Shown: in pieces, positions 4,716 to 24,034 of the stretch
Layout: each line of letters starts with the position of its first letter
Numbering within the stretch: the stretch's first letter is position 1
IMG/VR virus record: IMGVR_UViG_3300023179_000297
Coordinates: 1-34,158 of that record
Source: a virus
Reading direction: 5' to 3' (one strand)
DNA: 34,158 nt
The notes under the pieces: generated by a model
The model's database searches: none
What the model was told of the DNA's origin: nothing
The model's input: the letters and a program-made list of their open reading frames with translations, nothing else
Made by a program: the position numbers and the translations under genes

Positions 4716-5722
4716 ACCTTGTACAAAACGTCGTAAGCAACGGTGGACGTCTGCGTCCATTAATCATACCTTCATCTATAACCGCTGGCACAGGTCTAAT
4801 GAACCCTTCCATTTTTATAGATGACGACGGAGATATTCTATGCATTCTACGTCATATAAACTACACGCTATACCACGCTGAGCACGAACAACGTTTCCCC
4901 AGCGTGTGGGGACCATTAGCGTACTTGCACCCAGAAGAAGACCAAAGACTTGTCACAACAAACTACTTGTGCAGGCTAGACTCTGATCTCAATATCACAG
5001 ACTATTGTTTAATAGACACATCTAAACTTGATGTAAAACCAATATGGACTTTTGTTGGTGAAGAAGACGCTAGGCTAGTAAAATGGGATGGTAAATACTA
5101 TGCTACTGGCGTTAGACGCGACACAACAACAACCGGCCAAGGTAGAATGGAATTATCAGAAATAAAAATAGACAAAAAGAAATGGACAGCAAAAGAAGTA
5201 TCTAGAATTAGAATACCTCCACCAGTAGATCTTGAAGCATACTGCGAAAAAAACTGGATGCCAGTGCTTGATAAACCATACTACTTTGTTAAATGGTCAT
5301 CTCCTACAGAACTTGTAAAAACGTACCCAGATCTTCCAGAACGCTGCGAGCAGGTGTCTGTAAAAGAAGGAATAGTACCTTACGCAGACCAACGAGGAGG
5401 CTCACAGGTAATACGCTGGGGTAACAAGTACATAGCATTAGCTCATGAAGTTGTCTTATACAAGAACTACATGAAACAGAAAAATGCCACGTACAGACAC
5501 AGACTTCTTGTATGGGATGATAAGTTTACACTTATCGGACTTTCACCGCAATCATTTTCTTTTCTAGACGCTCAAATAGAATTTGCAGCAGGCATGGCAG
5601 TCCACAACGAAGACGTGCTAATAACCTTCGGATTTCAAGACAATGCTGCGTTTATTTTAAGAGTGCCTAATGACATTATTGAAAGTATGATCAAGGAGGC
5701 TCTTTCTTATGGAAGAGTATAG
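4712..5722 (+). CDS. GH130/GH43-like beta-propeller glycoside-active protein
   Basis: A 336-residue protein with the look of a five-bladed beta-propeller of the GH130/GH43-like superfamily, whose known members are glycoside phosphorylases and hydrolases. Visible features are GTGLMNPSIFIDDDGD (about 26-41), the LRHINYTLYH segment, GEEDARLVKWDGKYYATGVR (116-135) with the EDxR arrangement that carries the catalytic Asp in GH130, and KNWMPV..PYYFVKWSSP (about 180-198), matching a second conserved blade. The first in-frame start is TTG at 4712; the conserved RPLIIP and GTGLMNPS segments support starting there rather than at Met30. It overlaps the next gene by 14 bases. With its methyltransferase and glycosyltransferase neighbours it probably acts on a glycan of the virion or host. 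Substrate and reaction are unknown, and activity is not assured. Confidence 0.6.
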   Translation: MNLVQNVVSNGGRLRPLIIPSSITAGTGLMNPSIFIDDDGDILCILRHINYTLYHAEHEQRFPSVWGPLAYLHPEEDQRLVTTNYLCRLDSDLNITDYCLIDTSKLDVKPIWTFVGEEDARLVKWDGKYYATGVRRDTTTTGQGRMELSEIKIDKKKWTAKEVSRIRIPPPVDLEAYCEKNWMPVLDKPYYFVKWSSPTELVKTYPDLPERCEQVSVKEGIVPYADQRGGSQVIRWGNKYIALAHEVVLYKNYMKQKNATYRHRLLVWDDKFTLIGLSPQSFSFLDAQIEFAAGMAVHNEDVLITFGFQDNAAFILRVPNDIIESMIKEALSYGRV

Positions 5723-7022
5723 CAAAATAGACGATCTAGTCGTTGAACTTTCTAATGATCCTTTTAATCCTCAAATTAACTTGTCACTTGCTATTGAGTA
5801 CGAAAAAATTGATCAAACCGCATCAGCTGTTTCTTTTTACTTAAGAACTGCTGAATACGGCTACTACTCGCATAGAGAACACGTATACGCCTCCTTATTG
5901 AAGTCTGCCCAGTGCTTTGAAAATCAGAAAAATAGAGACAGCACAGTACATAACCTTATTCTAAAAGCAGTAGCATACGAACCTACAAGGGCAGAAGCTT
6001 GGTTCTTCTTATCAAGGTACTATGAAAAGAATAATAAATGGCAAGAGTCGTACACCGCAGCAGAGACTGGTCTTAGCAGAGTAACTCACGCGCAAGCGCC
6101 TCTACCATTAGATATAAAGTGTCCAGGAGTTATCGGGCTACTATTTCAAAAAGCTATTGCCGCATGGTGGATCGGTAGACAAGACGAGTGTAGCGAAATA
6201 CTTATAAATCTAAACAAGGAATCGCTACCAAAGATGTATGAAGATGCAGTTAGATACAATATTGACAGACTAAATATTTTAGAAGAAGAAATAGCAGAAT
6301 CTAGTCTACTAGATAAGTATCTAAAAAATGGATTTTTTCAAGTACCAGGTTGGGTTGTAAGAACACTTCCAGAGTTTATGAAGGTTCTAAAAAACGTAGA
6401 GTGGAACAATTCAGGTGGCGTTGCTGAAATTGGTGTATATATGGGTAGGTTTTTCTTACTTCTTAGAGCACTGATAGACACTCCAGAAAAGTCTTATGGA
6501 ATAGACGTGTTTGAAGAACAACATCTAAACATTGACTATAGTGGGACAGACTTGGCAAGAAAAAATATATTTGAAGATAACGTAAGTAATTTTGACGCGC
6601 ACGGTGGAAAAGGCGTTGTGCCAATACAAGGAGACTCGACGTCTAGTGAAATGCATAAAAGACTAGATAGAATTATTCCTTCAGGCTCTATACGATTCTT
6701 CTCAATCGATGGCGGCCATACTAAGGTACATACAATAAATGATTTAAGATTAGCAGAAAAGTACATCAGCGATTCTGGAGTAGTAATATTAGATGATATT
6801 CTTCATCAACACTGGTTCGGTGTTGTAGATGGAGCTTTAGAATATTTAAGGAACTTCCCAACTCTTACACCGTTTGCTCTTGGTCACAATAAGCTGTTCT
6901 TGTGCAAATACTCATGTCACTCAAAGTATCTTAAAGAAGTAGAAAAAAGTGGACACGGTCAACGACTTATCACTATAATGGGGCACGAAGTATGGGCAGT
7001 AGAGAAAATAAACGTTCAGTAA
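5709..7022 (+). CDS. TPR-containing class I SAM-dependent methyltransferase
   Basis: A 437-residue protein. Residues 1-165 are helical repeats of TPR type, with hydrophobic/Ala spacing and SFYLRTAEYGYYS, AWFFLSRYYEKNNKW and similar helices. Residues 230-400 are a Rossmann methyltransferase: motif I VAEIGVYMGRFFLLL (238-252), an acidic residue after the second strand in YGIDVF (D266), IQGDS (D309), and the FFSIDGGHTKVH segment (330-341) followed by VVILDD (358-363). The IDGGH/LDD pattern is that of the Methyltransf_24/CmcI-like group, many of which methylate sugars or small molecules. The start has a strong AAGGAGG site nine bases upstream. It lies between the GH130-like and GT2 genes, so a sugar O-methyltransferase role is inferred. 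Confidence 0.75.
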   Translation: MEEYSKIDDLVVELSNDPFNPQINLSLAIEYEKIDQTASAVSFYLRTAEYGYYSHREHVYASLLKSAQCFENQKNRDSTVHNLILKAVAYEPTRAEAWFFLSRYYEKNNKWQESYTAAETGLSRVTHAQAPLPLDIKCPGVIGLLFQKAIAAWWIGRQDECSEILINLNKESLPKMYEDAVRYNIDRLNILEEEIAESSLLDKYLKNGFFQVPGWVVRTLPEFMKVLKNVEWNNSGGVAEIGVYMGRFFLLLRALIDTPEKSYGIDVFEEQHLNIDYSGTDLARKNIFEDNVSNFDAHGGKGVVPIQGDSTSSEMHKRLDRIIPSGSIRFFSIDGGHTKVHTINDLRLAEKYISDSGVVILDDILHQHWFGVVDGALEYLRNFPTLTPFALGHNKLFLCKYSCHSKYLKEVEKSGHGQRLITIMGHEVWAVEKINVQ

Positions 7023-7046: not shown

Positions 7047-8138
7047 ATGAAAGTAGCAGTTTACACAATTGCACTAAACGAAGAACAGTTCGTGCAACGC
7101 TGGTACAACTCAGCAAAAGACGCTGACTACATTCTTATTGCTGATACTGGATCTACAGATGCTACAATAGAAAAAGCACTAGGGCTAGGAATAAATGTTT
7201 TCTCAGTATCAGTAAAACCTTGGAGATTCGATGTTGCAAGAAACGCTTCTTTAGCGCTACTACCAGACGATATTGATTACTGCATTGCATTAGATATGGA
7301 CGAAGTACTTATTGCAGGCTGGAGAGAAGAACTAGAAATTGCTCACTCGCAGAACTGGACGCGTCCAAGGTACTCGTATACTTGGAATTGGAATGATGAC
7401 GGTACTCCTGGACTAACGTATGGTGGAGACAAGATACATAAAAGAAATGGCTACATGTGGAAACACCCAGTGCACGAAGTGTTAAGAACAGACAGAATTA
7501 CAGAAATTCAAGGATGGACAGGTTTACAAATTCATCATCACGCAGACGACTCTAAGTCGCGCTCGCAGTACATGCCTCTTCTACAACTTTCTGTAGAAGA
7601 AGATCCTAGTGATGACAGAAACGCGTTTTACTATGCTAGAGAACTTTTTAACTACAATGTGCTAGATAAAGCTGCAGAAGAATTCAAAAGACATCTTTCT
7701 CTTCCTAGAGCTTTATGGCCACCAGAAAGAGCAGCGTCAATGCGGTATCTTGCTAAGTGTCTACCAGAAGAAGCTGAGCATTGGTTAAAAATGGCAGTAG
7801 AAGAAGCTCCAGGTAGAAGAGAAGCTATTGTCGATTTAGCTCAGCACTATTACGAAAATAAGCAGTGGGAAGACTCTCTCAAGTATGCGGAGATGGCGTT
7901 GGAGATAAAAGATAAACCATTAGAATTTCTTTGCGAAGCGTACGCTTGGGGAGCAGCTCCGTTTGACTTTGCATCTATAGCTGCTTACAATCTAAAAATG
8001 TACGATAAAAGTATTACCTACGCTAATGAAGCTATTAAAATAGAACCAGATAACGAGAGACTAAAAAATAACTTAGCACTCTCCGTCAAAGCTACAGAAG
8101 ATGACGATCAGAAGGCAAAGCCAAAGAAGCTAACCTAG
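7047..8138 (+). CDS. GT2-family glycosyltransferase with C-terminal TPR repeats
   Basis: A 363-residue GT-A fold glycosyltransferase. The N-terminus has the GT2 nucleotide-sugar motif: VYTIALNEEQFV (5-16), the IADTGSTDAT signature (31-40), and DMDE (83-86) as the metal-binding DxD. Residues about 130-165 hold an acceptor-side segment with W and H residues (WKHPVHEVL, IHHHADD). From about residue 180 to the end are TPR-like helical repeats (YYARELFNYNVLDKAAEEF and similar). Sequences of this architecture are known from bacterial glycan and glycoprotein loci. It ends four bases inside the convergent WhiB gene. Together with the two upstream genes it likely builds or trims a glycan, possibly on the fibre proteins encoded just upstream, which is inference. 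Confidence 0.8.
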   Translation: MKVAVYTIALNEEQFVQRWYNSAKDADYILIADTGSTDATIEKALGLGINVFSVSVKPWRFDVARNASLALLPDDIDYCIALDMDEVLIAGWREELEIAHSQNWTRPRYSYTWNWNDDGTPGLTYGGDKIHKRNGYMWKHPVHEVLRTDRITEIQGWTGLQIHHHADDSKSRSQYMPLLQLSVEEDPSDDRNAFYYARELFNYNVLDKAAEEFKRHLSLPRALWPPERAASMRYLAKCLPEEAEHWLKMAVEEAPGRREAIVDLAQHYYENKQWEDSLKYAEMALEIKDKPLEFLCEAYAWGAAPFDFASIAAYNLKMYDKSITYANEAIKIEPDNERLKNNLALSVKATEDDDQKAKPKKLT

Positions 8139-9695: not shown

Positions 9696-9980
9696 TCACA
9701 AGTCATCTTCTTCGTCTATTATATCTGCGTAATGTTGAAGTATATCCATATTAGAAGTGTATATTCCAACAACTGTTACTTCTCCGCAAGAGTAGCATTC
9801 ATTTACCTCTGGCGACAGCTCCATAGGCACTTTTACGCCTATCAAACGAGAAACTAATTTACCATCTTGGCTAACGCTTTCTGGCTCCCAGAAACTGTTG
9901 TTGTCTATCCAACATTTTTCACACACCGGGACAAACTCTTCTTCTTGATATTCTTCGTCTTCAAAGTCTTCTGTACTCAT
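9696..9980 (-). CDS. Small acidic zinc-ribbon protein
   Basis: A 94-residue protein not matched to a named family. It has an acidic N-terminus (FEDEEYQEEEF), two Cys pairs CEKC (20-23) and CYSC (62-65) spaced as in a zinc ribbon, then an acidic C-terminus (ADIIDEEDDL). Such small treble-clef or ribbon proteins in phages often bind nucleic acids or RNA polymerase, but the acid ends point to a protein partner instead; no function is claimed. Its ATG overlaps the stop of the methyltransferase-like gene (ATGA), so the two are translationally coupled. Confidence 0.6.
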   Translation of the reverse strand: MSTEDFEDEEYQEEEFVPVCEKCWIDNNSFWEPESVSQDGKLVSRLIGVKVPMELSPEVNECYSCGEVTVVGIYTSNMDILQHYADIIDEEDDL

Positions 9981-11239
9981 ACAACACCAGTCTTATCTTC
10001 CAATGAATACCATCTTTTCTTCACCGCATGGCGTGAGAAACCTTTATCAGTCTCTATAAGATACTCTCTGTCACCTATAAGAACCGCGTCATCTCCTTGA
10101 GGATTACCATTCAAAGAATCTTTTATGCCCTTAGCGAGCCACGAGGCGGCTTGTACGGGTACCGCCTTGCCCCATACCGCACGAAGAGCGCTGTAGTCAC
10201 GGGATTCTGAAATATTCCATTCATCAGGAAGACCTTGCATACGCGCTGATTCTCTGTGCGTTATCAATCTTGGTTCAGTAGGGTGAACAACATGCTCAAG
10301 AGCTGATCCTGTAAGAACGTTGCACCAGTGATCTTCCTTCCAGCGATACGGCTGTGAGAATCCAAGCTTAAAGTTTTTTCTAATAACGCGAGGAGAAATA
10401 TCAATCCACTTCTGAGGAAATTCTCCATTATTAAGTTCTACTGCTTTTTTAAGAGCCCCGCCAAGATCTCCGTTTCCTTCCCAACCTTCATTTCCAATAA
10501 TGTCAAACACCTCTTGCACTCTTTGCGCGTGTATGTTCTCAACCCCAATGTGGCCGTCAACAAACCCGTCCTTTGAGATTAAGTGCTTTACCCACTTTGA
10601 AGAAGGAGAAGTGTACCGTTGCTTATTCCATGTATGAGGCAGTTTAGCAAGATCTCCAATAATATCCATTATTCTTGGGAGCTCTTCTGGTTCGTTAAGA
10701 GGTATTGACAACTTTAGACCAGTTTCTACTGCTACCCAGAAGTACCTTGGTCTGTACGAAAATCCACCAACTTGTAGATTATTTTCTTTTATGTGGTAAA
10801 GATCGTATTTTTTACCTGATATCTCTTCTACCATGCTTCGGTACTTAAGCATAGCGTCTCTTCCTTGATTGTATGCCTGTTGTACACACTCGAAAACAAT
10901 GGCGCGAGGCTTTACCCGTCCAGCGTACTTCATGAACGCCACGGTATGCTCGTGCGCCTTTGAGTCAGGTCCTCTATTAGCGGGACCAGACCAGACTGAC
11001 CAACCAGAGCAAGGAGGACACCCGAGAACAATATCTGCTTTCTGTAAAGGCCACTCATTAGGATCTTCAGAAAAGTAACTTGACCAATTGTTTCCAAGAA
11101 GATGTCGATTATTTTGAGCTACAACATTTCCAAAGTCGAGAGTGCCTGTACGAAGCATCATCTCCATGTCATTTTGAACAAAGCCAAGACTCATGAAAGC
11201 GGCAAGACCGTTACAGTCTATGAAACTTAGCTTACTCAA
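9977..11239 (-). CDS. C5 cytosine DNA methyltransferase-like protein
   Basis: A 420-residue protein with the C5-methyltransferase motif order: motif IV GCPPCSGWS (73-81) with catalytic Cys77, motif VI FECVQ (116-120), motif VIII YRPRYFWV (162-169), motif IX ITHRESARMQGLPDEW (326-341) and motif X WGKAVPVQAASWLA (356-369). Motif I is odd: FIDCNGLAAFMSLGF instead of the usual D-L-F-A-G-x-G-G, and motif VI has FEC where ENV is typical. The start is TTG at 11239, with AAAGG eight bases before it. A 66-base AT-rich gap upstream could hold a promoter (TAGAAT or TACTAT boxes). It may methylate phage DNA against host restriction. In a phage that may contain hydroxymethylcytosine, the altered SAM-site motif raises the question whether it uses a different cofactor or substrate. 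Confidence 0.8.
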   Translation of the reverse strand: MSKLSFIDCNGLAAFMSLGFVQNDMEMMLRTGTLDFGNVVAQNNRHLLGNNWSSYFSEDPNEWPLQKADIVLGCPPCSGWSVWSGPANRGPDSKAHEHTVAFMKYAGRVKPRAIVFECVQQAYNQGRDAMLKYRSMVEEISGKKYDLYHIKENNLQVGGFSYRPRYFWVAVETGLKLSIPLNEPEELPRIMDIIGDLAKLPHTWNKQRYTSPSSKWVKHLISKDGFVDGHIGVENIHAQRVQEVFDIIGNEGWEGNGDLGGALKKAVELNNGEFPQKWIDISPRVIRKNFKLGFSQPYRWKEDHWCNVLTGSALEHVVHPTEPRLITHRESARMQGLPDEWNISESRDYSALRAVWGKAVPVQAASWLAKGIKDSLNGNPQGDDAVLIGDREYLIETDKGFSRHAVKKRWYSLEDKTGVV

Positions 11240-12258: not shown

Positions 12259-12738
12259 TTATCCTTCTTTCTTCTCTGGAGCGCATTTAGCGCATAAATC
12301 GCTTTCTGTGCCCACGCCAATATCATCTATAGCGCGCGTGCACATGCGACATTTTACTCCTACTTCTTTTACTTTGTACCCATCTAGTTGACGTTTTCTA
12401 TTTTTTTCCATTTTTTCTACGTAAAATGCGTCTAGTACTTCGTCTGTTCCTCCGGCCGCAACGATGATATTTGCAACAAAATGAAGAACATCAACAGCTT
12501 CTTTTATAATTTCTTCTCTATCAGCATACGGATCGTCATGCTGCCATGGCTTCCATGAGATTGCTTGACGCATCTCTGCCAGCTCATCGTCAATGGCTAG
12601 CATATTCCAGCGCATGTACTCGACTAAGTTTCTTATATTTTCAGGCGTGTCACCTTCTAGTTTTTCATAGTCAATTCGATACACGCTTTTTTGTAGATCT
12701 TTTGTTTTTTCTAACCATGTATTAAAAAGTATTCCCAT
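12259..12738 (-). CDS. All-alpha NTP pyrophosphatase (dimeric dUTPase / possible dCTPase) with zinc ribbon
   Basis: A 159-residue protein. Residues 38-122 match the dimeric dUTPase group of the all-alpha NTP pyrophosphatase (MazG-like) superfamily: IDDELAEM (E52xxE55), SWKPW (61-65), and EEIIKEAVDVLHF with E80xxD83 as metal ligands, followed by KNRKRQLDGY. These enzymes hydrolyse dUTP (and in T4 gp56 also dCTP) to the monophosphate. A C-terminal CRMC (130-133) and CAKC (149-152) form an added zinc ribbon not typical of the family. ATG at 12738 lies just after the upstream stop, with AAGGA about ten bases before it. It supplies dUMP, and if it acts on dCTP it would supply dCMP for the ThyA-family hydroxymethylase candidate and keep plain dC out of DNA. 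Substrate cannot be told from sequence. Confidence 0.75.
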   Translation of the reverse strand: MGILFNTWLEKTKDLQKSVYRIDYEKLEGDTPENIRNLVEYMRWNMLAIDDELAEMRQAISWKPWQHDDPYADREEIIKEAVDVLHFVANIIVAAGGTDEVLDAFYVEKMEKNRKRQLDGYKVKEVGVKCRMCTRAIDDIGVGTESDLCAKCAPEKKEG

Positions 12739-12739
12739 G

Positions 12740-13765
12740 CTATTTTGTTCCTTTCTTACTATATAAGCCAAGAGCGTTATGCAGTTCTACTGCAGCATCT
12801 CTTCTTGATGGCATACTTTTTACGTATGCTTCTCTCTGCTGGTACGCAAGTGCTACTCTATCTTCTTCAGAAAGATCTTCTATTCTTGCTGCAAGATACA
12901 TCCACGAGTCTCCTAGTACACTGCTTTCTTGCCAATTGGTAGCAATAGGAGTAAGAGAATTAAGACACTGCGGTATTCTGTAACTCCACCATGTTCCGTT
13001 TTGATGAGGAGTAATAAGTGCGCCTATTCCACTCGCTATTTGCGCAAGCACTTGCGCGTCAGTCCAGCCCTTGTGCCATTTCATTGGCACAGTAGGATTC
13101 GCTAATGTTGCTGCAGTAGACTTTATCCATGGAGTAGAATAGTTTTCTACTACCCATTTTTCTCTTCTTTCTATCTCTATAACATCTTGATTAGATAGTA
13201 AATACGAGTCAATATTTACAGCCATAAGTGAATCTCTAGCTAGTTCTGGTAATTGTTTTTTAACAGATTCTATGTCACCCCATGGAAGAGAAGGGTACAG
13301 CGTTACTGGCCATTTCTCGGTTATTAAGTAATCTATAACATCTATGAGACTGTCTAACACAGTTGGCTGCGTCGCGTAAGAAAAGCTTTTTCTGTACGAA
13401 TAGAAAGGCTTAGTTAAATTGTCTGGAGTTTTGCTTATTGCTTTTAAGCTAGAAGTAATGCGCGTAGGCTCTGGAGCGTCAATAAGTAGCCTAAGTTTTG
13501 GAGACTTTAGCATAACGTCAATTACGCTAAGAGCTCCATACACTCTGTTAGCGCTTAAGCTAGTTAAAGGGCTTATGCCTACTAGTACAGAATCGTATTC
13601 TTCTAAGTCTTTACTATTCCATGAAACGTCTGGGTCTTCTTGAATTACTATGTGTCCTTGTTCCTCGAGAACTTTAACTATTGCACCCGCAAAAGAAAGA
13701 GACCTGGTATTCGCGTCCTTAGACGTATGAGGCGCTGACATCCCAGTGACTAGTACTTTACTCAT
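12740..13765 (-). CDS. GT-B-like glycosyltransferase, paralogue 2
   Basis: A 341-residue protein related to the gene immediately upstream. Both start with a short strand and loop (KVLVTGMSAPHT here), then a helix of the form SLSFAGAIVKVLEEQGH, then YDSVLVGISPLTSLSANR, as in the N-terminal Rossmann domain of GT-B enzymes. The C-terminal half has HQNGTWWSYRIPQCLNSLTP followed by SVLGDSW, matching the upstream paralogue's GSGWWRSRFLYAAHVGSV and DPLGDSY; this is where GT-B enzymes bind the nucleotide sugar. The start overlaps the upstream stop (ATGA). It sits among replication genes, not in the + strand sugar locus, so DNA is a likely acceptor. It is shorter than its partner, mostly in the middle, and could have a different sugar or anomer. 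Function is inferred. Confidence 0.6.
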   Translation of the reverse strand: MSKVLVTGMSAPHTSKDANTRSLSFAGAIVKVLEEQGHIVIQEDPDVSWNSKDLEEYDSVLVGISPLTSLSANRVYGALSVIDVMLKSPKLRLLIDAPEPTRITSSLKAISKTPDNLTKPFYSYRKSFSYATQPTVLDSLIDVIDYLITEKWPVTLYPSLPWGDIESVKKQLPELARDSLMAVNIDSYLLSNQDVIEIERREKWVVENYSTPWIKSTAATLANPTVPMKWHKGWTDAQVLAQIASGIGALITPHQNGTWWSYRIPQCLNSLTPIATNWQESSVLGDSWMYLAARIEDLSEEDRVALAYQQREAYVKSMPSRRDAAVELHNALGLYSKKGTK

Positions 13766-14973
13766 GCGACAGTCCCGTCTGCGTTTAGCTCTAATCCTTT
13801 ATCTTCTAGTGCTGCGCGTTGAACAATACGATTGCAGTGCTCTACAAAACTTTCATAGGTTGGTATGTATTTTGAAAGCGCCGCGCGTTGAGCCATTGCA
13901 GCTTCGTGTAACTGCGTCTCATTCATCTTCTCTACATCTGATATTGTAAGTTTATATGAGTCTCCTAGAGGATCTCCTTCGCCTTTATCAGTAACAAGAA
14001 CAGAACCAACATGAGCAGCGTATAAAAATCTGCTGCGCCACCAGCCTGAACCCGCGTGAGGATACGGTGGCGAAAGAATTCCCCAGTGTCTATTGTAGAA
14101 CTCAAGAACGTCTTGCTCCGTATCAAATCGCTGTCCACCGAGCTTTTTAATAAGCTTTCTACTTCCAACTATTTCAACTGGCCAATTAAAGTTTTTCTTT
14201 TCTAGCCAAGTATCATGTGGCATTAGCGCTCCAAGCACCCATGCTTTCTTTTTAGCGTCTGGCGCATTTTCTATTACTGCCTGAAGAGAAGGAATAACAG
14301 TTGGCGTTGGGTCAAGAGCTTCTATAGGTCCAACTTCTTTTGGCATACGTTTACGCACTACTGATCTGTCACCAAACGAGTACATAGGGCACACAGGCAC
14401 CATACCAGCTTCCCAGCGGGCAGCAAGGAGATCTATTGCAGACTGCACTAAGCGTTTTTCATAAGGTTTTACATTTTCGTCGTTGTCCATCATGTAGTAA
14501 CGTTCTATGTAACACTTTTTAGCAGCGTCAGGGTTGAGCTCTCTAACACGTTCTAGTGCTGCTTCTATATCTTCTCTGCTAAAGTACGTAGCACCTTCGT
14601 CACCGCGATGGTCTGTTCCAACAAGTAAATGTTTGTAAAGCATTGCTGGTTTTCTCATAAGAGCACGCGCACCATTGAATACAGTATTAAATTGCCAGTC
14701 GTCAAAAAATCCTACGCAAGGTATACCAGACGACAGCGCATAAAGCGCTCCCATAGCTCCTTGTCGGCCATTTAAAGAATTTAGTGGAGCAAGATTTATC
14801 CATAAAACATCATAAGAAGATAGATCTTCACCTGGAGTAATTTTTCTCCAGTCTACTTCATGCCCTGATTCACGTAGTGCTTTAACGATAGATGCTGGCA
14901 CATCTATCTTTTGTATAGTGCGTCTTTCAGTGTTTATTTGTAAAGCAGTAAACCCACTCATAAGAATTTTCAC
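13762..14973 (-). CDS. GT-B-like glycosyltransferase, paralogue 1
   Basis: A 403-residue protein. The N-terminal domain begins ILMSGFTALQ, then IDVPASIVKALRESGHEVDW, YDVLWINLAPLNSLNGRQG and CVGFFDDW, which fits a GT-B Rossmann domain. The C-terminal domain contains KKAWVLGALMPHDTW, PVEIVGSRKLIKKLGG, LSPPYPHAGSGWWRSRFLYA and VLVTDKGEGDPLGDSYKL, the expected nucleotide-sugar side. The GTG at 14973 has GAAGG six bases upstream; an ATG four codons in is the alternative. It overlaps its paralogue by the ATGA junction. No signal peptide or membrane helix is seen, so it is a cytoplasmic enzyme. With the hydroxymethylase candidate in the same transcription unit, glycosylation of hydroxymethylated cytosine in phage DNA is the leading hypothesis; a protein or small-molecule acceptor cannot be excluded. 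Confidence 0.6.
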   Translation of the reverse strand: MKILMSGFTALQINTERRTIQKIDVPASIVKALRESGHEVDWRKITPGEDLSSYDVLWINLAPLNSLNGRQGAMGALYALSSGIPCVGFFDDWQFNTVFNGARALMRKPAMLYKHLLVGTDHRGDEGATYFSREDIEAALERVRELNPDAAKKCYIERYYMMDNDENVKPYEKRLVQSAIDLLAARWEAGMVPVCPMYSFGDRSVVRKRMPKEVGPIEALDPTPTVIPSLQAVIENAPDAKKKAWVLGALMPHDTWLEKKNFNWPVEIVGSRKLIKKLGGQRFDTEQDVLEFYNRHWGILSPPYPHAGSGWWRSRFLYAAHVGSVLVTDKGEGDPLGDSYKLTISDVEKMNETQLHEAAMAQRAALSKYIPTYESFVEHCNRIVQRAALEDKGLELNADGTVA

Positions 14974-19254: not shown

Positions 19255-19719
19255 TTACTGAAGCAGCCTCTTTGGTGACCAACCTAGCTTTATCGCCCTA
19301 AGTAGTCCATGCCGTATCGCGTCAAGAGCGTGACCTTCTCCGCCAACAAACCAGTAGTCTAATTTCTTTAATGCAGGGTTAGGGAACATTTTCTTAGCGT
19401 CTGCAGGAGACTGAAAAGTAAGTGAATCAGGATCTAAATCGCCATCTAACATAAGATGCTTAAGTATCCCGATCTGCTCTAAAGAGTACGGTGCCTGCGT
19501 GTTACGAACAGTTTGCGCGTTGATAATAAATCTCTCGCACACAACATCAAGATGAATATTATTGTTACGAGCATGTTCAATTGCATCACGAATAGGCTTA
19601 GCGTACTCACGCATTTGATATTCACCAGACCATAGAAGTTTAGGTTCTTCACCGCGCTCTAATTCTATAAGCGCAATTCCGCTAGCCTTACCTGGGTCTA
19701 CAGATAAAATAAACTTCAT
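19255..19719 (-). CDS. RuvC-like Holliday junction resolvase
   Basis: A 154-residue RNase H-fold nuclease. It opens with FILSVDPGKASGIAL, where D8 is the first catalytic acid, has VVCERF with E62, and HALDAIRHGL with H130 and D133 as the last catalytic group. This is the spacing of RuvC/YqgF-type resolvases; the length is typical of phage forms. Such enzymes cut four-way junctions before packaging. Its ATG overlaps the polymerase stop (ATGA). It lies between the DNA polymerase and the SNF2 helicase, as expected for a replication-recombination module. Confidence 0.85.
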   Translation of the reverse strand: MKFILSVDPGKASGIALIELERGEEPKLLWSGEYQMREYAKPIRDAIEHARNNNIHLDVVCERFIINAQTVRNTQAPYSLEQIGILKHLMLDGDLDPDSLTFQSPADAKKMFPNPALKKLDYWFVGGEGHALDAIRHGLLRAIKLGWSPKRLLQ

Positions 19720-21542
19720 CGGTACTTATCTCCCCACGTCTCCATTGGTCCGTCAATCCCAGCAGTAAGTGGGACAGCCCAGCCTTCTGTAGTTGTCATA
19801 CACTCTTTAACAGTCTGCATAATTTCTATAGCGTCTTTTCTCGGAGCATTAAGAACAATTTCATCATGCACTGGCACAATTAAAAGTTCTGTTAAATCTG
19901 CTTGATCTAACTTAACAAGATTAGACTTAAAAATTTCAGCCGCGCCTCCTTGAATTAGGTAGTTAACAAGAGTGTAAGCGCGATCTTCATCACAAGGAAG
20001 ACGCCTACCAGTCCAAGTATACACGTAACCTTGGCCTTCAGCTCGTAAACGACGCATACCAGCATCTTCTATTTGCTTTTGAAATAGCGCCATTCCAGGA
20101 AAACGAGTATCAAACGCATCTGACACAGAGCGCATCTGCGGCTCAGCAACACCAGCAGTTAGCGCTTGTTTTGCTACGCCAGCTCCGTAAAGACGACCAT
20201 ACACTGTTCCTTTAATAAGATTTCTTCTTTTATCAGAACGCTGCATGCTTGGATCATTATAGATCTCGCGACCAATTTCAGTGAAAGGATCTGACCCCGT
20301 TGCGTCAGCTCGATTAAATAGAGTAATAAGATTTGGATCACTAGATAGACTAGCAAACATTCTAAATTCTACTTGGTCAAGGTCGGACGTAATAATTACG
20401 TGATCCTCGTCTTTAGGAATAAACGCAGTCCGTACAGTATCATCGCCTTTAGGCAGTGTTTGAAGAGCTGGATTTTGTATAGACATACGGCTTGTGCGTG
20501 CACCTAGTGTTTTTACTGAAGGATGCACAAAACCATTAACGTTGTCATTGATAAAGTTGGCAAAATACGTATTAGCTAGCTTATCAGCCTTACGCTGCTT
20601 TAGAACAGTTTCTGCTAGCATTTTTACTTCATGATTTCCTTGAATAGAAAGAAGTTTTAACTGATCTTTACTTGCTGATTTCTGTCCAGAAGGAGTGTAT
20701 TCGTCAATATCCGCACCTAGGCTTTCAAATAGACGAACAAGTTGTACGTTGCTTGTTATCGAAACTCCACCGTATTTTTGTCGTGACCACTCCTTAACTT
20801 GTTCAGTGTAGGCAGTTAGCTCATCAAATTTCTTTTTAGAGTAGTCGAGATCTATTCTAGCTCCGTTTATTTCCATACGCGTAACAATTCGTCTAGCTGC
20901 CATTTCAAGTTCGTACGCTTTGTTATACGGACCTTCAGGACCACATTTTTTATAGAACATTTCCCATATTCTCATAGTAAGAACGCAGTCAAGTGCACCA
21001 TAAGCCCAATAAGGTTCAAAGTTAGTTGGAACAGTTCCCCATGTCCAACCATTTTTAGCAAGTTCAGTATCAAGAGTTTCTTGAAGCGCTACAGCACGAC
21101 TATCAACATGCAAAGCAGCAAGACGCTTAAGCGCTCCAGAGCCAAGTGGATCTATGATGTGTGCCATAATCATTGTGTCGTGCGCCCTGTGCCAAGGAAT
21201 TTTCCAACGAGAATGAACGTCAAACCATCGTGCTTCAAATGCAATGTTATGACAAACTATTGGACCATCGAACTTGTCCATTGCTTCATAGAAAACACCA
21301 GCCCACTCTGACCAAGACATTGCCCAAGATTGTTTACCGTCTCCTACTTGTACAAGACGTAGTTGACCATGCCAAGGAGAAAGAGCATCAGCACGATCTC
21401 TGCCAGGAAGCTCTCCAGTTTCTGTGTCAATTGCAATAGCATTATATGGACGACGTTCTCCTAGCCACGATATAAAGTCACGCGCCTTATCAGCACTGTC
21501 GACTAAATGTAACTGAATCTCACCTAATCCTTCATTTGGCAT
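19716..21542 (-). CDS. polA: Family A DNA polymerase with 3'-5' exonuclease
   Basis: A 608-residue replicative-type polymerase. The exonuclease domain shows Exo I AIDTETG (37-43, D39 and E41), Exo II HNIAFEARWFD (98-108) and Exo III YGALDCVLT (181-189, D185). The polymerase domain has motif A DLDQVEFRMFAS (387-398), motif B KRRNLIKGTVYGRLYG (438-453) and motif C VPVHDEIVL (556-564). No 5'-3' exonuclease domain is present, as in T7 and many actinophages. Tyr448 occupies the position of E. coli Phe762, as in T7 polymerase. ATG at 21542 lies inside the deaminase gene end, an 11-base overlap. It would copy phage DNA, and must accept the modified dCTP if the hypermodification route is real. Confidence 0.95.
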   Translation of the reverse strand: MPNEGLGEIQLHLVDSADKARDFISWLGERRPYNAIAIDTETGELPGRDRADALSPWHGQLRLVQVGDGKQSWAMSWSEWAGVFYEAMDKFDGPIVCHNIAFEARWFDVHSRWKIPWHRAHDTMIMAHIIDPLGSGALKRLAALHVDSRAVALQETLDTELAKNGWTWGTVPTNFEPYWAYGALDCVLTMRIWEMFYKKCGPEGPYNKAYELEMAARRIVTRMEINGARIDLDYSKKKFDELTAYTEQVKEWSRQKYGGVSITSNVQLVRLFESLGADIDEYTPSGQKSASKDQLKLLSIQGNHEVKMLAETVLKQRKADKLANTYFANFINDNVNGFVHPSVKTLGARTSRMSIQNPALQTLPKGDDTVRTAFIPKDEDHVIITSDLDQVEFRMFASLSSDPNLITLFNRADATGSDPFTEIGREIYNDPSMQRSDKRRNLIKGTVYGRLYGAGVAKQALTAGVAEPQMRSVSDAFDTRFPGMALFQKQIEDAGMRRLRAEGQGYVYTWTGRRLPCDEDRAYTLVNYLIQGGAAEIFKSNLVKLDQADLTELLIVPVHDEIVLNAPRKDAIEIMQTVKECMTTTEGWAVPLTAGIDGPMETWGDKYR

Positions 21543-22008
21543 AGTTGTCCTCTACTATAGTTACGTCTATGCCACAGTTTTTAAAGTAGTCAATTGTGAG
21601 CTCTGGTCTCCTGTACGAAGCAGTTCCACTAATTTTTGTAACCACTCTTTTTATACCTGAGTTAGAAACTAGTTTAGCGCATTGAAAACATGGTACATCT
21701 GTAATATAAATAGTTCCGCCTTCTATACGAGATCTATCAACGTAGAGAAGCGCGTTTGCCTCTGAGTGTATCGAAGGGCACGAGTCATACGTGTTATCAA
21801 GAGGAACAACCCCTTGCGCACGCGGGCACCAGTTTACGCAGTCTCCTTCAACTGGCAAACAAGCAGCAGGTCCATTGTAGCCAGTAGAGCTAACTCTTTG
21901 ATCCTTAGAAACTATCACCGCACCGATTTGTGCACGACTACAGCGCGAACGAGCTGCAATAGACTCAGCTACTTGCATCCACACTTCATCCCAAGATGGT
22001 CTACTCAT
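21532..22008 (-). CDS. Deoxycytidylate (dCMP) deaminase
   Basis: A 158-residue zinc deaminase: the HSEANAL motif (81-87) gives the zinc ligand H81 and catalytic E83, and PCFQCAK (106-112) gives C107 and C110. An upstream loop with extra cysteines (C50, C57, C61, C77) is typical of dCMP deaminases that bind a second metal. It converts dCMP to dUMP. The frame is open to 22041, but ATG at 22008 starts the conserved MSRPSWDEVWM. It overlaps the small gene upstream by eight bases and the polymerase downstream. In T4 the same enzyme coexists with dCMP hydroxymethylase and competes for dCMP; here it would feed host thymidylate synthesis, as no ordinary ThyA or ThyX is seen. Confidence 0.9.
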   Translation of the reverse strand: MSRPSWDEVWMQVAESIAARSRCSRAQIGAVIVSKDQRVSSTGYNGPAACLPVEGDCVNWCPRAQGVVPLDNTYDSCPSIHSEANALLYVDRSRIEGGTIYITDVPCFQCAKLVSNSGIKRVVTKISGTASYRRPELTIDYFKNCGIDVTIVEDNYAK

Positions 22009-22186
22009 GAAAATCATCCGGGCCATACGCCATAGAAGCAACTACTACCTTAGAAATAATTGTCAAGCTTTCCTTGCGTGAAAAACCAGACTTGCAGAGC
22101 TCAACGTACATCTCGTGCAGTTGCACAGTAGCGTCACGAAGAGGACTAGTATACTCTTTTGCTTCTTCGTTATCTTTATTTTCCAT
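22001..22186 (-). CDS. Small helical hypothetical protein
   Basis: A 61-residue protein. The frame is open to 22252 inside the ThyA-family gene, but ATG at 22186 with a GAGG site is preferred, giving MENKDNEEAKEYT at the start. The rest is mostly helix (LHEMYVELCKSGFSRKESLTII) with a final acidic stretch. No motif is recognised. It overlaps the ThyA-family stop by 11 bases and the deaminase start by 8, so it is coupled to both and is probably a real gene, perhaps an accessory of these enzymes. Confidence 0.5.
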   Translation of the reverse strand: MENKDNEEAKEYTSPLRDATVQLHEMYVELCKSGFSRKESLTIISKVVVASMAYGPDDFHE

Positions 22187-23036
22187 TTTTTGCCTCGTTC
22201 TTAGCAATAGCGTTCTGCATCGCAAGAGCGTACCATCGCGTATCGCTATCAATAAACGTAAGATACTCTCCGTCCTTTTTCGAAAAGGACAGTGCTTCTC
22301 TAGCTTTTATTTCTACTTCTTTCCACGTAGATCCAGTAAGAGAAGGTATATTCTCGTATTTATCAGTGTGCGCTAACTTAGTTGCAGATTGATAGTGCTG
22401 TTCGTATATATGAAGTGACCCTACGTGATGAGTGTACTTACCAGGTTCTATTCCTAGAACAGAAGCCATAGCTATTTGTACGCGAGTAAATTGAAAGAAA
22501 TCGTATGCTGCTCCAAGCCATACATCATTAGAGCGCATGTAAACACTCATATTTAATTTATTGTCGCGTATTCTAAACTGATGAAGTATTGTGCACGGGT
22601 AATCACGCTTTTTAGCAAGAAGATCAAGCTCAGGGTTCCATATAGTAACTACGCCTTGGCGTGAGTCTGGATCGTCTTTTAGACGAGAGATTATTTCGTT
22701 GTACTGTCCCTTAGTTCTTAAACCATACGCGCCATGAAACAGTCCATTGTCCTCAGTGTAGTTCTTAAACTGTGGTCCTATAGCAATAACAAGACTAGGT
22801 TCGCTAACTCCACCAATAAGCTGACAAGCTTCAACTGCACCAATACCAGCAACTGTGCCTCTGCCAACGCCTAAAGGTAGAGTATTAAACACGTCTGCTA
22901 TGCGAATAACAGCATCTTCTATTTCTAATGTCTTCATTCCACGAGGAGCTACTTCTACTCCATTATTTAGAACGTGTTTTACAAGATCGACGTAACCATT
23001 GACCCCGTCTTGTATATCTATTATCGCAGTATCCAT
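22176..23036 (-). CDS. ThyA-family enzyme, predicted dCMP hydroxymethylase
   Basis: A 286-residue thymidylate-synthase fold protein. Catalytic Cys148 lies in DYPCTILHQF (145-154); the phosphate-site motif MRSNDVWLG (167-175) has R168 and D171; SLHIY holds H209 and Y211; DSRQGVVTIWN (124-134) is the partner-subunit loop. The key point is D179 in AAYDFFQF: thymidylate synthases have Asn there (E. coli N177) to select dUMP, while T4 dCMP hydroxymethylase has Asp179 to select dCMP. It is therefore predicted to turn dCMP into 5-hydroxymethyl-dCMP using methylene-tetrahydrofolate. ATG at 23036 follows AAGGAG and overlaps the kinase gene by 16 bases, so the two are co-translated. Residue 127 is Gln where TS usually has a second Arg. 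An unusual thymidylate synthase is the main alternative. Confidence 0.75.
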   Translation of the reverse strand: MDTAIIDIQDGVNGYVDLVKHVLNNGVEVAPRGMKTLEIEDAVIRIADVFNTLPLGVGRGTVAGIGAVEACQLIGGVSEPSLVIAIGPQFKNYTEDNGLFHGAYGLRTKGQYNEIISRLKDDPDSRQGVVTIWNPELDLLAKKRDYPCTILHQFRIRDNKLNMSVYMRSNDVWLGAAYDFFQFTRVQIAMASVLGIEPGKYTHHVGSLHIYEQHYQSATKLAHTDKYENIPSLTGSTWKEVEIKAREALSFSKKDGEYLTFIDSDTRWYALAMQNAIAKNEAKNGK

Positions 23037-24034
23037 TTGTCTCCTTCTACACTATTGTCGCTAGACGCGTTTCTTTCTATAGCACGACCATATTCTTCTA
23101 TATCCTTATGGTGAAATCTTTTCACATATTGCGGGTGAGGTAAGACTGCGCACGGTTTAACTTTATGAGCAAGAAGAGTCTTCTCAGCAAGTCTACCAAG
23201 CGCAATAACTTTTGGTCGGCCAAGACACGTCCATAACTCGTCAAATGGTTGTTGCGTGTCGTTAACGTTTACTATTCCGATGTTCTTCCAAAAGGCACTT
23301 GGAAGCGAATTTAATAAAAATTCACCAGAATTGTTGTCAACAGGCATGAACGGCAGAATAGTTTCTTCTCCATGTTTTTTAGTAATGTTTCTTCTATCTC
23401 CAACCAGGATAGTCGACGGAGTAAGCGATCCTATATATTCAGGGAACAGATCCATTCTTTTTTCTTTTACAATAGTGGCTTTTCTTTCTGCAATATCAAC
23501 AATACTTTTAGCAATACTTGGTATCTGATCAATGCTATCTTTTTCAGGTTGTATTTTCTCTGTAGAGCACGATACTTCACCAGCAATCATGTACTGGTCT
23601 AGTATCTCTTTTAACTCGTAAGATGCTACAAAATCGTCACCGCGAAACTGCAAACGTTCTTGAATCACTTCTAAGGGCTGATAAAGCCAGAACTGTGAAA
23701 TACCTCGGGATTGCAAAAAGAGTTCAACCCAGCGCCACCCAGCCTTTCCTAATAGACCGTAGCCGTCCTTGTCAGTATGTGAGCGTTTTAGTGGCGCATA
23801 CGTAATTTCACCCCAGTGCCACCTGTCTGATATTGCGTGCTCTTTTGTCCAATTGTCTTTTTCAATAGAAAGAACATAGTCGTTTAGCACCCATCGACGC
23901 GTTTCTTCTAAGGGACGTCCTTTATGAAATGACTGAACGCTACTTAAAGGGTACCGTAGTGATATTTCGTCTTTTATTGCAGATATTAAAGACGTCTTGC
24001 CGCTGGCGTCTGTGCCTTCAATAACAACAAACAT
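23021..24034 (-). CDS. Thymidylate-kinase-like dNMP kinase fused to a UDG-superfamily-like domain
   Basis: A 337-residue two-domain protein. Residues 1-185 look like a thymidylate/deoxynucleotide kinase: P-loop EGTDASGKT (6-14), SDRW (69-72) in place of the usual DRY, and a lid with RGDD (131-134). Residues 195-325 recall the uracil-DNA glycosylase superfamily: ILVGDRRN (209-216), LPFMP..NNSGEFLLNSL (227-244), GIVNVND, PKVIALGRLAEKTL (274-287) and LPHPQYVKRF (298-307). The usual catalytic acid and Asn of active UDGs are not evident, so this may be a binding rather than cutting domain. The start has AAGGA ten bases upstream. Overlap with the hydroxymethylase gene suggests it phosphorylates the modified nucleotide, as T4 gp1 does. 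The domain call is by eye. Confidence 0.65.
   Translation of the reverse strand: MFVVIEGTDASGKTSLISAIKDEISLRYPLSSVQSFHKGRPLEETRRWVLNDYVLSIEKDNWTKEHAISDRWHWGEITYAPLKRSHTDKDGYGLLGKAGWRWVELFLQSRGISQFWLYQPLEVIQERLQFRGDDFVASYELKEILDQYMIAGEVSCSTEKIQPEKDSIDQIPSIAKSIVDIAERKATIVKEKRMDLFPEYIGSLTPSTILVGDRRNITKKHGEETILPFMPVDNNSGEFLLNSLPSAFWKNIGIVNVNDTQQPFDELWTCLGRPKVIALGRLAEKTLLAHKVKPCAVLPHPQYVKRFHHKDIEEYGRAIERNASSDNSVEGDKWILR

Follow-up and report, generated by a model that had tools for sequence, protein, structure and literature searches.

A phage gene annotated as a thymidylate synthase is predicted to encode a dCMP hydroxymethylase and lies near glycosyltransferase-like genes

The window analysed here is the whole of IMG/VR virus record IMGVR_UViG_3300023179_000297, 34,158 nucleotides long. 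The translation of its minus-strand open reading frame 22176-23036, a ThyA-family protein, contains CTILHQFRIRDNKLNMSVYMRSNDVWLGAAYDFFQF and matches PF00303 (1.8e-28). A kinase and a dCMP deaminase are its immediate neighbours, followed by a replication block and two glycosyltransferase-like genes, GT1 and GT2 (Table 1). This order is conserved in a neighbourhood set of 81 loci (80 viral contigs and DSL-LC01): kinase (79 loci), ThyA-family enzyme (81), dCMP deaminase (79), DNA polymerase I (78), RuvC (73), helicase (72), nuclease (66), RecA (65), ssb-like protein (58), GT1 (45), GT2 (41) and dUTPase_2 (31), the fall in counts along the series being largely due to contig and flank ends. Some loci depart from the common layout. 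A helicase frame exceeds its orthologs by about 1.1 kb, as an intein or an insertion would give (L012, 13883-16771), and an extra segment of about 1.2 kb separates the ThyA-family gene from the deaminase gene in L025, L027, L029, L038-L040, L043, L046 and L081. Beyond the whiB-like gene of the window, the plus strand codes for a TPR/methyltransferase protein (5709-7022) and a family-2 glycosyltransferase with TPR repeats (7047-8138).

Table 1. Features of the window and, in the last row, of a related contig, with the evidence for each
Feature	Position	Strand	Evidence
Predicted dCMP hydroxymethylase, ThyA superfamily, 286 aa	22176..23036	-	ATG start; alignments, profiles, model, tree
D179 codon (E. 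coli ThyA N177 position; cytosine-selecting)	22500..22502	-	translation, alignments
D145 codon, three before C148; T4 gp42 Asp145, Leu in synthases	22602..22604	-	alignment
C148 codon, catalytic nucleophile	22593..22595	-	translation, alignment
D171 codon (E. coli D169, folate-binding; Asn in RB69-type hydroxylase)	22524..22526	-	alignment
dCMP deaminase	21532..22041	-	PF00383 1.5e-19; phrog_174 6.4e-48; ortholog in 79/81 loci
P-loop kinase, annotated thymidylate kinase; candidate hm-dCMP kinase	23021..24034	-	phrog_761 5.3e-12; 79/81 loci
DNA polymerase I-type gene, same replication block	19716..21542	-	annotated DSL-LC01 ortholog and synteny
GT1, predicted GT-B glycosyltransferase; phrog_14998 (unknown function)	13762..14973	-	model, fold matches
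GT2, glycosyltransferase-like paralog of GT1	12740..13765	-	hhalign with GT1; phrog_14998 5.3e-4
dUTPase_2 / dCTPase-like pyrophosphohydrolase	12259..12771	-	PF08761 2.2e-11
C5-cytosine DNA methyltransferase-like gene	9977..11239	-	PF00145 2e-19
UDP-galactopyranose mutase	L002 28930-30039		beside GT1 relative

A sequence-only reading of this gene had proposed that its Asp179 stands where E. coli thymidylate synthase ThyA has Asn177, and that T4 dCMP hydroxymethylase (gp42) has Asp there as well. Alignments bear out both points, D179 falling on the Asn of PFNI in ThyA and on D179 of gp42, and MilA also has Asp (phmmer alignment). The codon is GAT on the minus strand (22502..22500), facing plus-strand atc. 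The residues said to be kept, Cys148, Arg168, Asp171, His209 and Tyr211, are all present, and alignment gives a catalytic set of C148, R168 and E69. An open frame, with active-site residues preserved in orthologs, speaks against a pseudogene. The reading was also right that the gene is called a thymidylate synthase by default, in Pfam and PHROGs and in the DSL-LC01 and GodonK records; against the NCBIfam synthase models the protein scores far below the cut-offs (for example 79.0 versus 108.35 bits). As a selector of substrate, D179 does speak for cytosine, but it does not tell which group is added. In RB69 the FAD-dependent dCMP hydroxylase has the same Asp at 179, so the case for hydroxymethylation must draw on D145, D171 and Y211.

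According to the accessible part of PMC6400193, Asp145 of gp42 is needed for activation of the attacking water and corresponds to Leu in synthases, D145N is inactive (synthases have a hydrophobic residue instead), D179N loses activity, and the E. coli ThyA D169 position binds the folate pterin. In the window protein Cys148 is followed by Thr149, where most synthases have His, and alignment with references finds no synthase-type C-terminal tail. In environmental DNA, positions 177 and 147 are reported to show the strongest association with modified cytosine (PMC8670742); here they are D and T. The part of PMC6400193 consulted also proposes T4 Ser94 as a component of the hydroxymethylation signature. 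A Ser or Thr two residues before the conserved Tyr is absent from the window protein, which has Gly102-x-Tyr104 where gp42 has Ser94-x-Tyr96, the Gly being invariant in 27 aligned family members. Ser94 is not treated here as defining, because the SPO1-like dUMP hydroxymethylase of Goe10 has Ala at this position in the alignment and because the T4 S94A variant is described as keeping about 25 percent activity (PMC6400193). The Goe10 enzyme combines D145 with N179, the pairing to be predicted if hydroxymethylation depends on 145 and the choice of base on 179.

The nucleotide form can be approached in the same way. In the available text of PMC5175136, Lys133 and Ala176 favour CMP, Arg and Ser favour dCMP. 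Alignment with MilA and references places R126 and S169 at these sites of the window protein, which by that rule should prefer dCMP; a CMP hydroxymethylase of the MilA/BcmA type, with its Lys133 and Ala176, was thus rejected. The supposed thymidylate synthase is very probably a dCMP hydroxymethylase of an actinobacterial phage.

The signature recurs in the viral relatives. At least 111 relatives of the window protein were confirmed in viral contigs, and D145 / C148-T149 / D171 / D179 / H209-Y211 occurs in 80/80 of the best 80 of these 111 IMG/VR orthologs, so that D179 is neither a sequencing slip nor a chance event. The ortholog count alone is biased, because 66 of the 80 loci were reached only through the pattern AAYDFFQF, which contains D179. 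A second scan using patterns off the site nevertheless recovered the same signature, with Asp in all 79 newly fetched loci, mostly on the contigs of the first set, several of them new. The five positions are identical in 80/80 T4-gp42-like viral proteins and read L / CH / D / N / HY in 80/80 E. coli-ThyA-like ones; two of the 34 rows classed as 'other' have no letters at the site. No relative was found when bacterial genomes were scanned with the window protein, nor when viral contigs were scanned with a SPO1-like query.

Two alternatives concern the product of the enzyme. The first, a dCMP methylase of the Xp12 type making 5-methyl-dCMP, draws on the report, in the accessible part of PMC8670742, that the single change Asn177Asp is enough to turn a synthase from dUMP to dCMP, with this very product. 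Such mutants, however, keep the Leu and the C-terminal tail, whereas the window protein has D145 and no tail, and we consider a methylase quite improbable within this comparison, which covers the N177D mutants. The second takes the default annotation (Pfam, PHROGs) at its word, as a divergent thymidylate synthase supplied with dUMP by the adjacent dCMP deaminase. The gene does adjoin that deaminase and a 'thymidylate kinase', and five long IMG/VR relatives and DSL-LC01 each have a single PF00303 match and no ThyX. Yet the synthase Asn177 and the Leu three residues before the Cys are absent in every ortholog examined, and T4 too has a dCMP deaminase. Furthermore, the D-type enzyme stands alongside a separate N-type synthase in phage G and Tulanevirus, and alongside ThyX in GMA2. 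In Bacillus phage G (L089, L103) the D-type enzyme is gp319, its N-type synthase being separate. In Aeromonas phage phiAS4 (L105/L114) the canonical synthase is split over two overlapping frames, by frameshift or sequencing error, and its four fragment rows give no signature call or a partial one.

Phylogeny points the same way. In a tree of 65 rows, 20 canonical synthases form one clade (100/98) with the window protein outside it, grouped with actinophage orthologs (18 rows, 100/96) that the Gordonia proteins adjoin (22 rows, 99/88). When RB69 is omitted the synthase clade keeps an SH-aLRT of 96.8 and the window protein is still excluded, although the AU test does not reject a topology that unites the 22 actinophage rows with the 20 synthases (p 0.378, RB69 left out). 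The sequence-only reading had accepted that a place deep inside the dUMP-specific synthases would count against it; the tree puts the protein elsewhere. A divergent synthase is the least probable of the enzymatic alternatives. The window family joins neither T4 gp42 nor MilA in this tree, whose deep branches give no support for common descent with either enzyme.

The structural model of the window protein has a pLDDT of 91.3 and a pTM of 0.90. The first seven Foldseek matches are chains of MilA, and among the matches listed in a second-look comparison MilA again comes first (Z 25.9-26.4 over 270-275 residues), next the dCMP hydroxylase of phage HY126 (Z 21.6 and 20.8), with synthases at 19.9 and below. 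T4 gp42 is absent among the structural matches listed, which says nothing for or against, while its rank in a PDB profile search is circular because the query alignment included it. The second place of HY126 brings in a third alternative, a FAD-dependent dCMP 5-hydroxylase (RB69/HY126 AfhB type), in which case a sugar would be joined directly to the C5-OH. The titles of PDB 9iqc and 9iqu describe a ThyA-fold dCMP hydroxylase of phage HY126, and RB69 ORF048c is nearly identical to 9iqc. AfhB belongs to the ThyA superfamily; it carries Asp at 179, follows its Cys with Thr and has Glu, likewise an acid, where the window protein has D145. The accessible text of PMC13390438 describes sugar cassettes in hydroxylase-bearing phages and, for RB69-type cytosines, arabinose on 5-hydroxycytosine. 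Against this, MilA is clearly the closer fold (Z 26.4 for 275 residues, versus 21.6 for 220), and in the tree RB69 ORF048c sits on a long branch distant from the window protein. At the three positions where the window protein keeps D171, Y211 and G175, RB69 ORF048c has Asn, Phe and Val. The Asn171/Phe211 pair, drawn from RB69 ORF048c alone, is a working mark rather than an established definition of hydroxylases, and the window protein lacks it. With D171, the folate-binding position, in place, folate chemistry is a better reading than flavin chemistry, and a hydroxylase seems very improbable.

Among the neighbours, the kinase profile-matches prophage protein YorR. It has a conserved extra C-terminal part, and six of 19 members of its family weakly match PF03167, the uracil-DNA glycosylase superfamily (best E 0.021); this part of the kinase is possibly a UDG-like domain. 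T4 gp56 matches PF08761 too (2e-5), but on a different stretch than the dUTPase_2 of the window, for which a dCTPase activity is conjectural. The C5-methyltransferase-like family, found in 13 of 14 related records searched, four Gordonia phages included, sits oddly beside such a module, and counts against full replacement of dC by hydroxymethylcytosine (hmC).

GT1 and GT2 are kin (hhalign 98.9 percent, E 1.9e-17), and phrog_14998 is the only PHROG that they match. In the model of GT1, the one of the pair modelled (pLDDT 78.3), the best Foldseek match is T4 beta-glucosyltransferase (BGT, E 2.1e-5), with the alpha-glucosyltransferase at 6.3e-4. A second-look comparison gives a tie between SenB (Z 15.7) and BGT (15.6; four BGT entries at 14.5-15.6). 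At the sequence level hhalign detects no kinship of GT1 with BGT (0.4 percent), Pfam gives no PF09198 match, and a search among solved structures finds no credible relative. We think that GT1 and GT2 probably hang a sugar on the hydroxymethylated base. The enzyme might instead make hm-dCMP while GT1 and GT2 act off DNA, on the cell surface, the virion or metabolites, an option that we hold unlikely, though it deserves its place: GT-B folds are common, and SenB, PimA and MshA, which are general sugar transferases, match GT1 with scores close to those of T4 BGT.

The genomic position of these genes argues otherwise. The slot between the replication block and dUTPase_2 could be scored in 51 of the 81 loci (the 30 left out comprise 23 without an ssb match and seven ending too soon), and a GT-type gene occupies it in 51/51, nine of these by motif only: GT1 in 41 (40 and DSL-LC01), GT2 only in one and another GT-like gene in nine. 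The slot is a site of exchangeable genes in relatives. After the ssb-like gene, in L057, L064, L072, L073 and L074, a different cassette replaces GT1/GT2; Pfam identifies the full set of APH kinase, HAD and nucleotidyltransferase in five of the nine alternative loci. This assembly of GT-like gene, APH-family kinase, HAD hydrolase and nucleotidyltransferase resembles a dedicated sugar-activation pathway. Its GT profile retrieves no credible solved structure, no Pfam family and no PHROG, and hhalign gives no relation with GT1, so that it is called a GT on the strength of motifs recognised by eye.

Relatives of GT1 occur in 55 phage records. The D-type enzyme accompanies them in nine of the 11 GT1-bearing records checked (DSL-LC01, phiAS4, 50AhydR13PP, IME13, MW202657, Forza, GMA2, Sixama and GodonK), a second point against action off DNA. 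As for the other two, Vibrio 6E35.1a has a GT1 match only near the C-terminal end and an N-type synthase only, and cyanophage C48C1 has a relative of GT1 over its full length (hhalign 99.7 percent) and no PF00303 match, so that the link between GT1 and the D-type enzyme is not absolute. C48C1, with its UDP-galactopyranose mutase (UGM) and no ThyA-family gene, speaks for activity off DNA, as does the interpretation of UGM as a cell-wall gene in papers, among them the accessible part of the one on DSL-LC01 (PMC10611076). UGM was found in five of 16 records searched (DSL-LC01, three Tulanevirus phages and C48C1) and adjoins the GT1 relative in 5/5. Forza, GMA2 and GodonK, all Gordonia phages, have dUTPase_2/MazG and a methyltransferase after their GT genes, as the window does. 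A bolder and rather doubtful extension would make GT1/GT2 a novel hmC-DNA glycosyltransferase family whose donor modules can be exchanged: UGM-adjacent members (DSL-LC01, Aeromonas/Stenotrophomonas Tulanevirus) might make galactofuranosyl-hydroxymethylcytosine, the kinase/HAD/nucleotidyltransferase cassette (up to 9/51 loci) might provide a different activated sugar, and freshwater actinophages might swap the sugar of their DNA at one fixed slot.

Taken jointly, a folate-dependent dCMP hydroxymethylase feeding an hmC pathway with its neighbour genes, GT1/GT2 glycosylating hmC, is the explanation that we regard as likely. The substrate dCMP would be bound through D179 and attacked at C6 by C148; a methylene group would be taken from methylene-tetrahydrofolate, and water activated by D145 would be added, yielding 5-hydroxymethyl-dCMP. 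The dUTPase_2 (dCTPase-like) and the dCMP deaminase would adjust the supply of dCTP and dCMP, the neighbour kinase would raise hm-dCMP towards the triphosphate, and the phage polymerase would incorporate the hydroxymethylated nucleotide into DNA. There, in T4-like fashion, GT1/GT2 would glycosylate hmC against host nucleases.

The consequence would be that 'thymidylate synthase', a label often met in environmental actinophages, gives way to a role in DNA modification, with at least 111 stretches of viral contigs encoding a close relative. If this is true, these phages would have cytosine-modified DNA, perhaps badly handled by restriction enzymes, CRISPR nucleases, some library methods and nanopore base-calling, and GT1/GT2 would become candidate DNA glycosyltransferases. 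A literature search on hmC in actinobacteriophages found nothing on these phages. The cultured Gordonia phages GodonK, Forza, Sixama and GMA2 have the same kind of genes, which makes the idea directly testable.

Among known systems, T4 gp42 shares with the window protein D179, D145, the C148-Thr pair, D171, the His/Tyr pair and the catalytic Glu, and its pathway has the same partners: a gp56-family hydrolase, a nucleotide kinase, a dCMP deaminase and glucosyltransferases, glycosyltransferase-like genes in the window. Identity is nonetheless limited to 26 percent in the multiple alignment, Ser94 contrasts with Gly102, and the window protein exceeds gp42 by about 40 residues, its C-terminal part being helical and alignable with MilA. 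As for the T4 glucosyltransferases (BGT/AGT), they have the GT-B fold in common with GT1, a likeness of fold only, where other GT-B enzymes tie. MilA, the CMP hydroxymethylase of Streptomyces rimofaciens, is the best fold match and shares Asp at 179 and 145 and Cys-Thr, but has Lys/Ala where the window protein has R126/S169, and serves antibiotic synthesis. The RB69/AfhB 5-hydroxy-dCMP synthase has the ThyA fold and the Asp and Thr in common, without D171, Y211 and G175, and is FAD-dependent according to PDB titles. Finally, the phage contigs of the metaGPA study (eLife 2021, PMC8670742, accessible part) follow the same logic of positions 177 and 147, and they or 'pyrimidine hmase' records such as MW202621 have, like the window, a deaminase and an NTP pyrophosphohydrolase near the gene. 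The N177D logic is therefore already published. That study, in the part available, followed carbamoylation of hmC, whereas the lineage of the window has glycosyltransferase-like genes instead, and it is this sugar module beside the enzyme that is the newer part.
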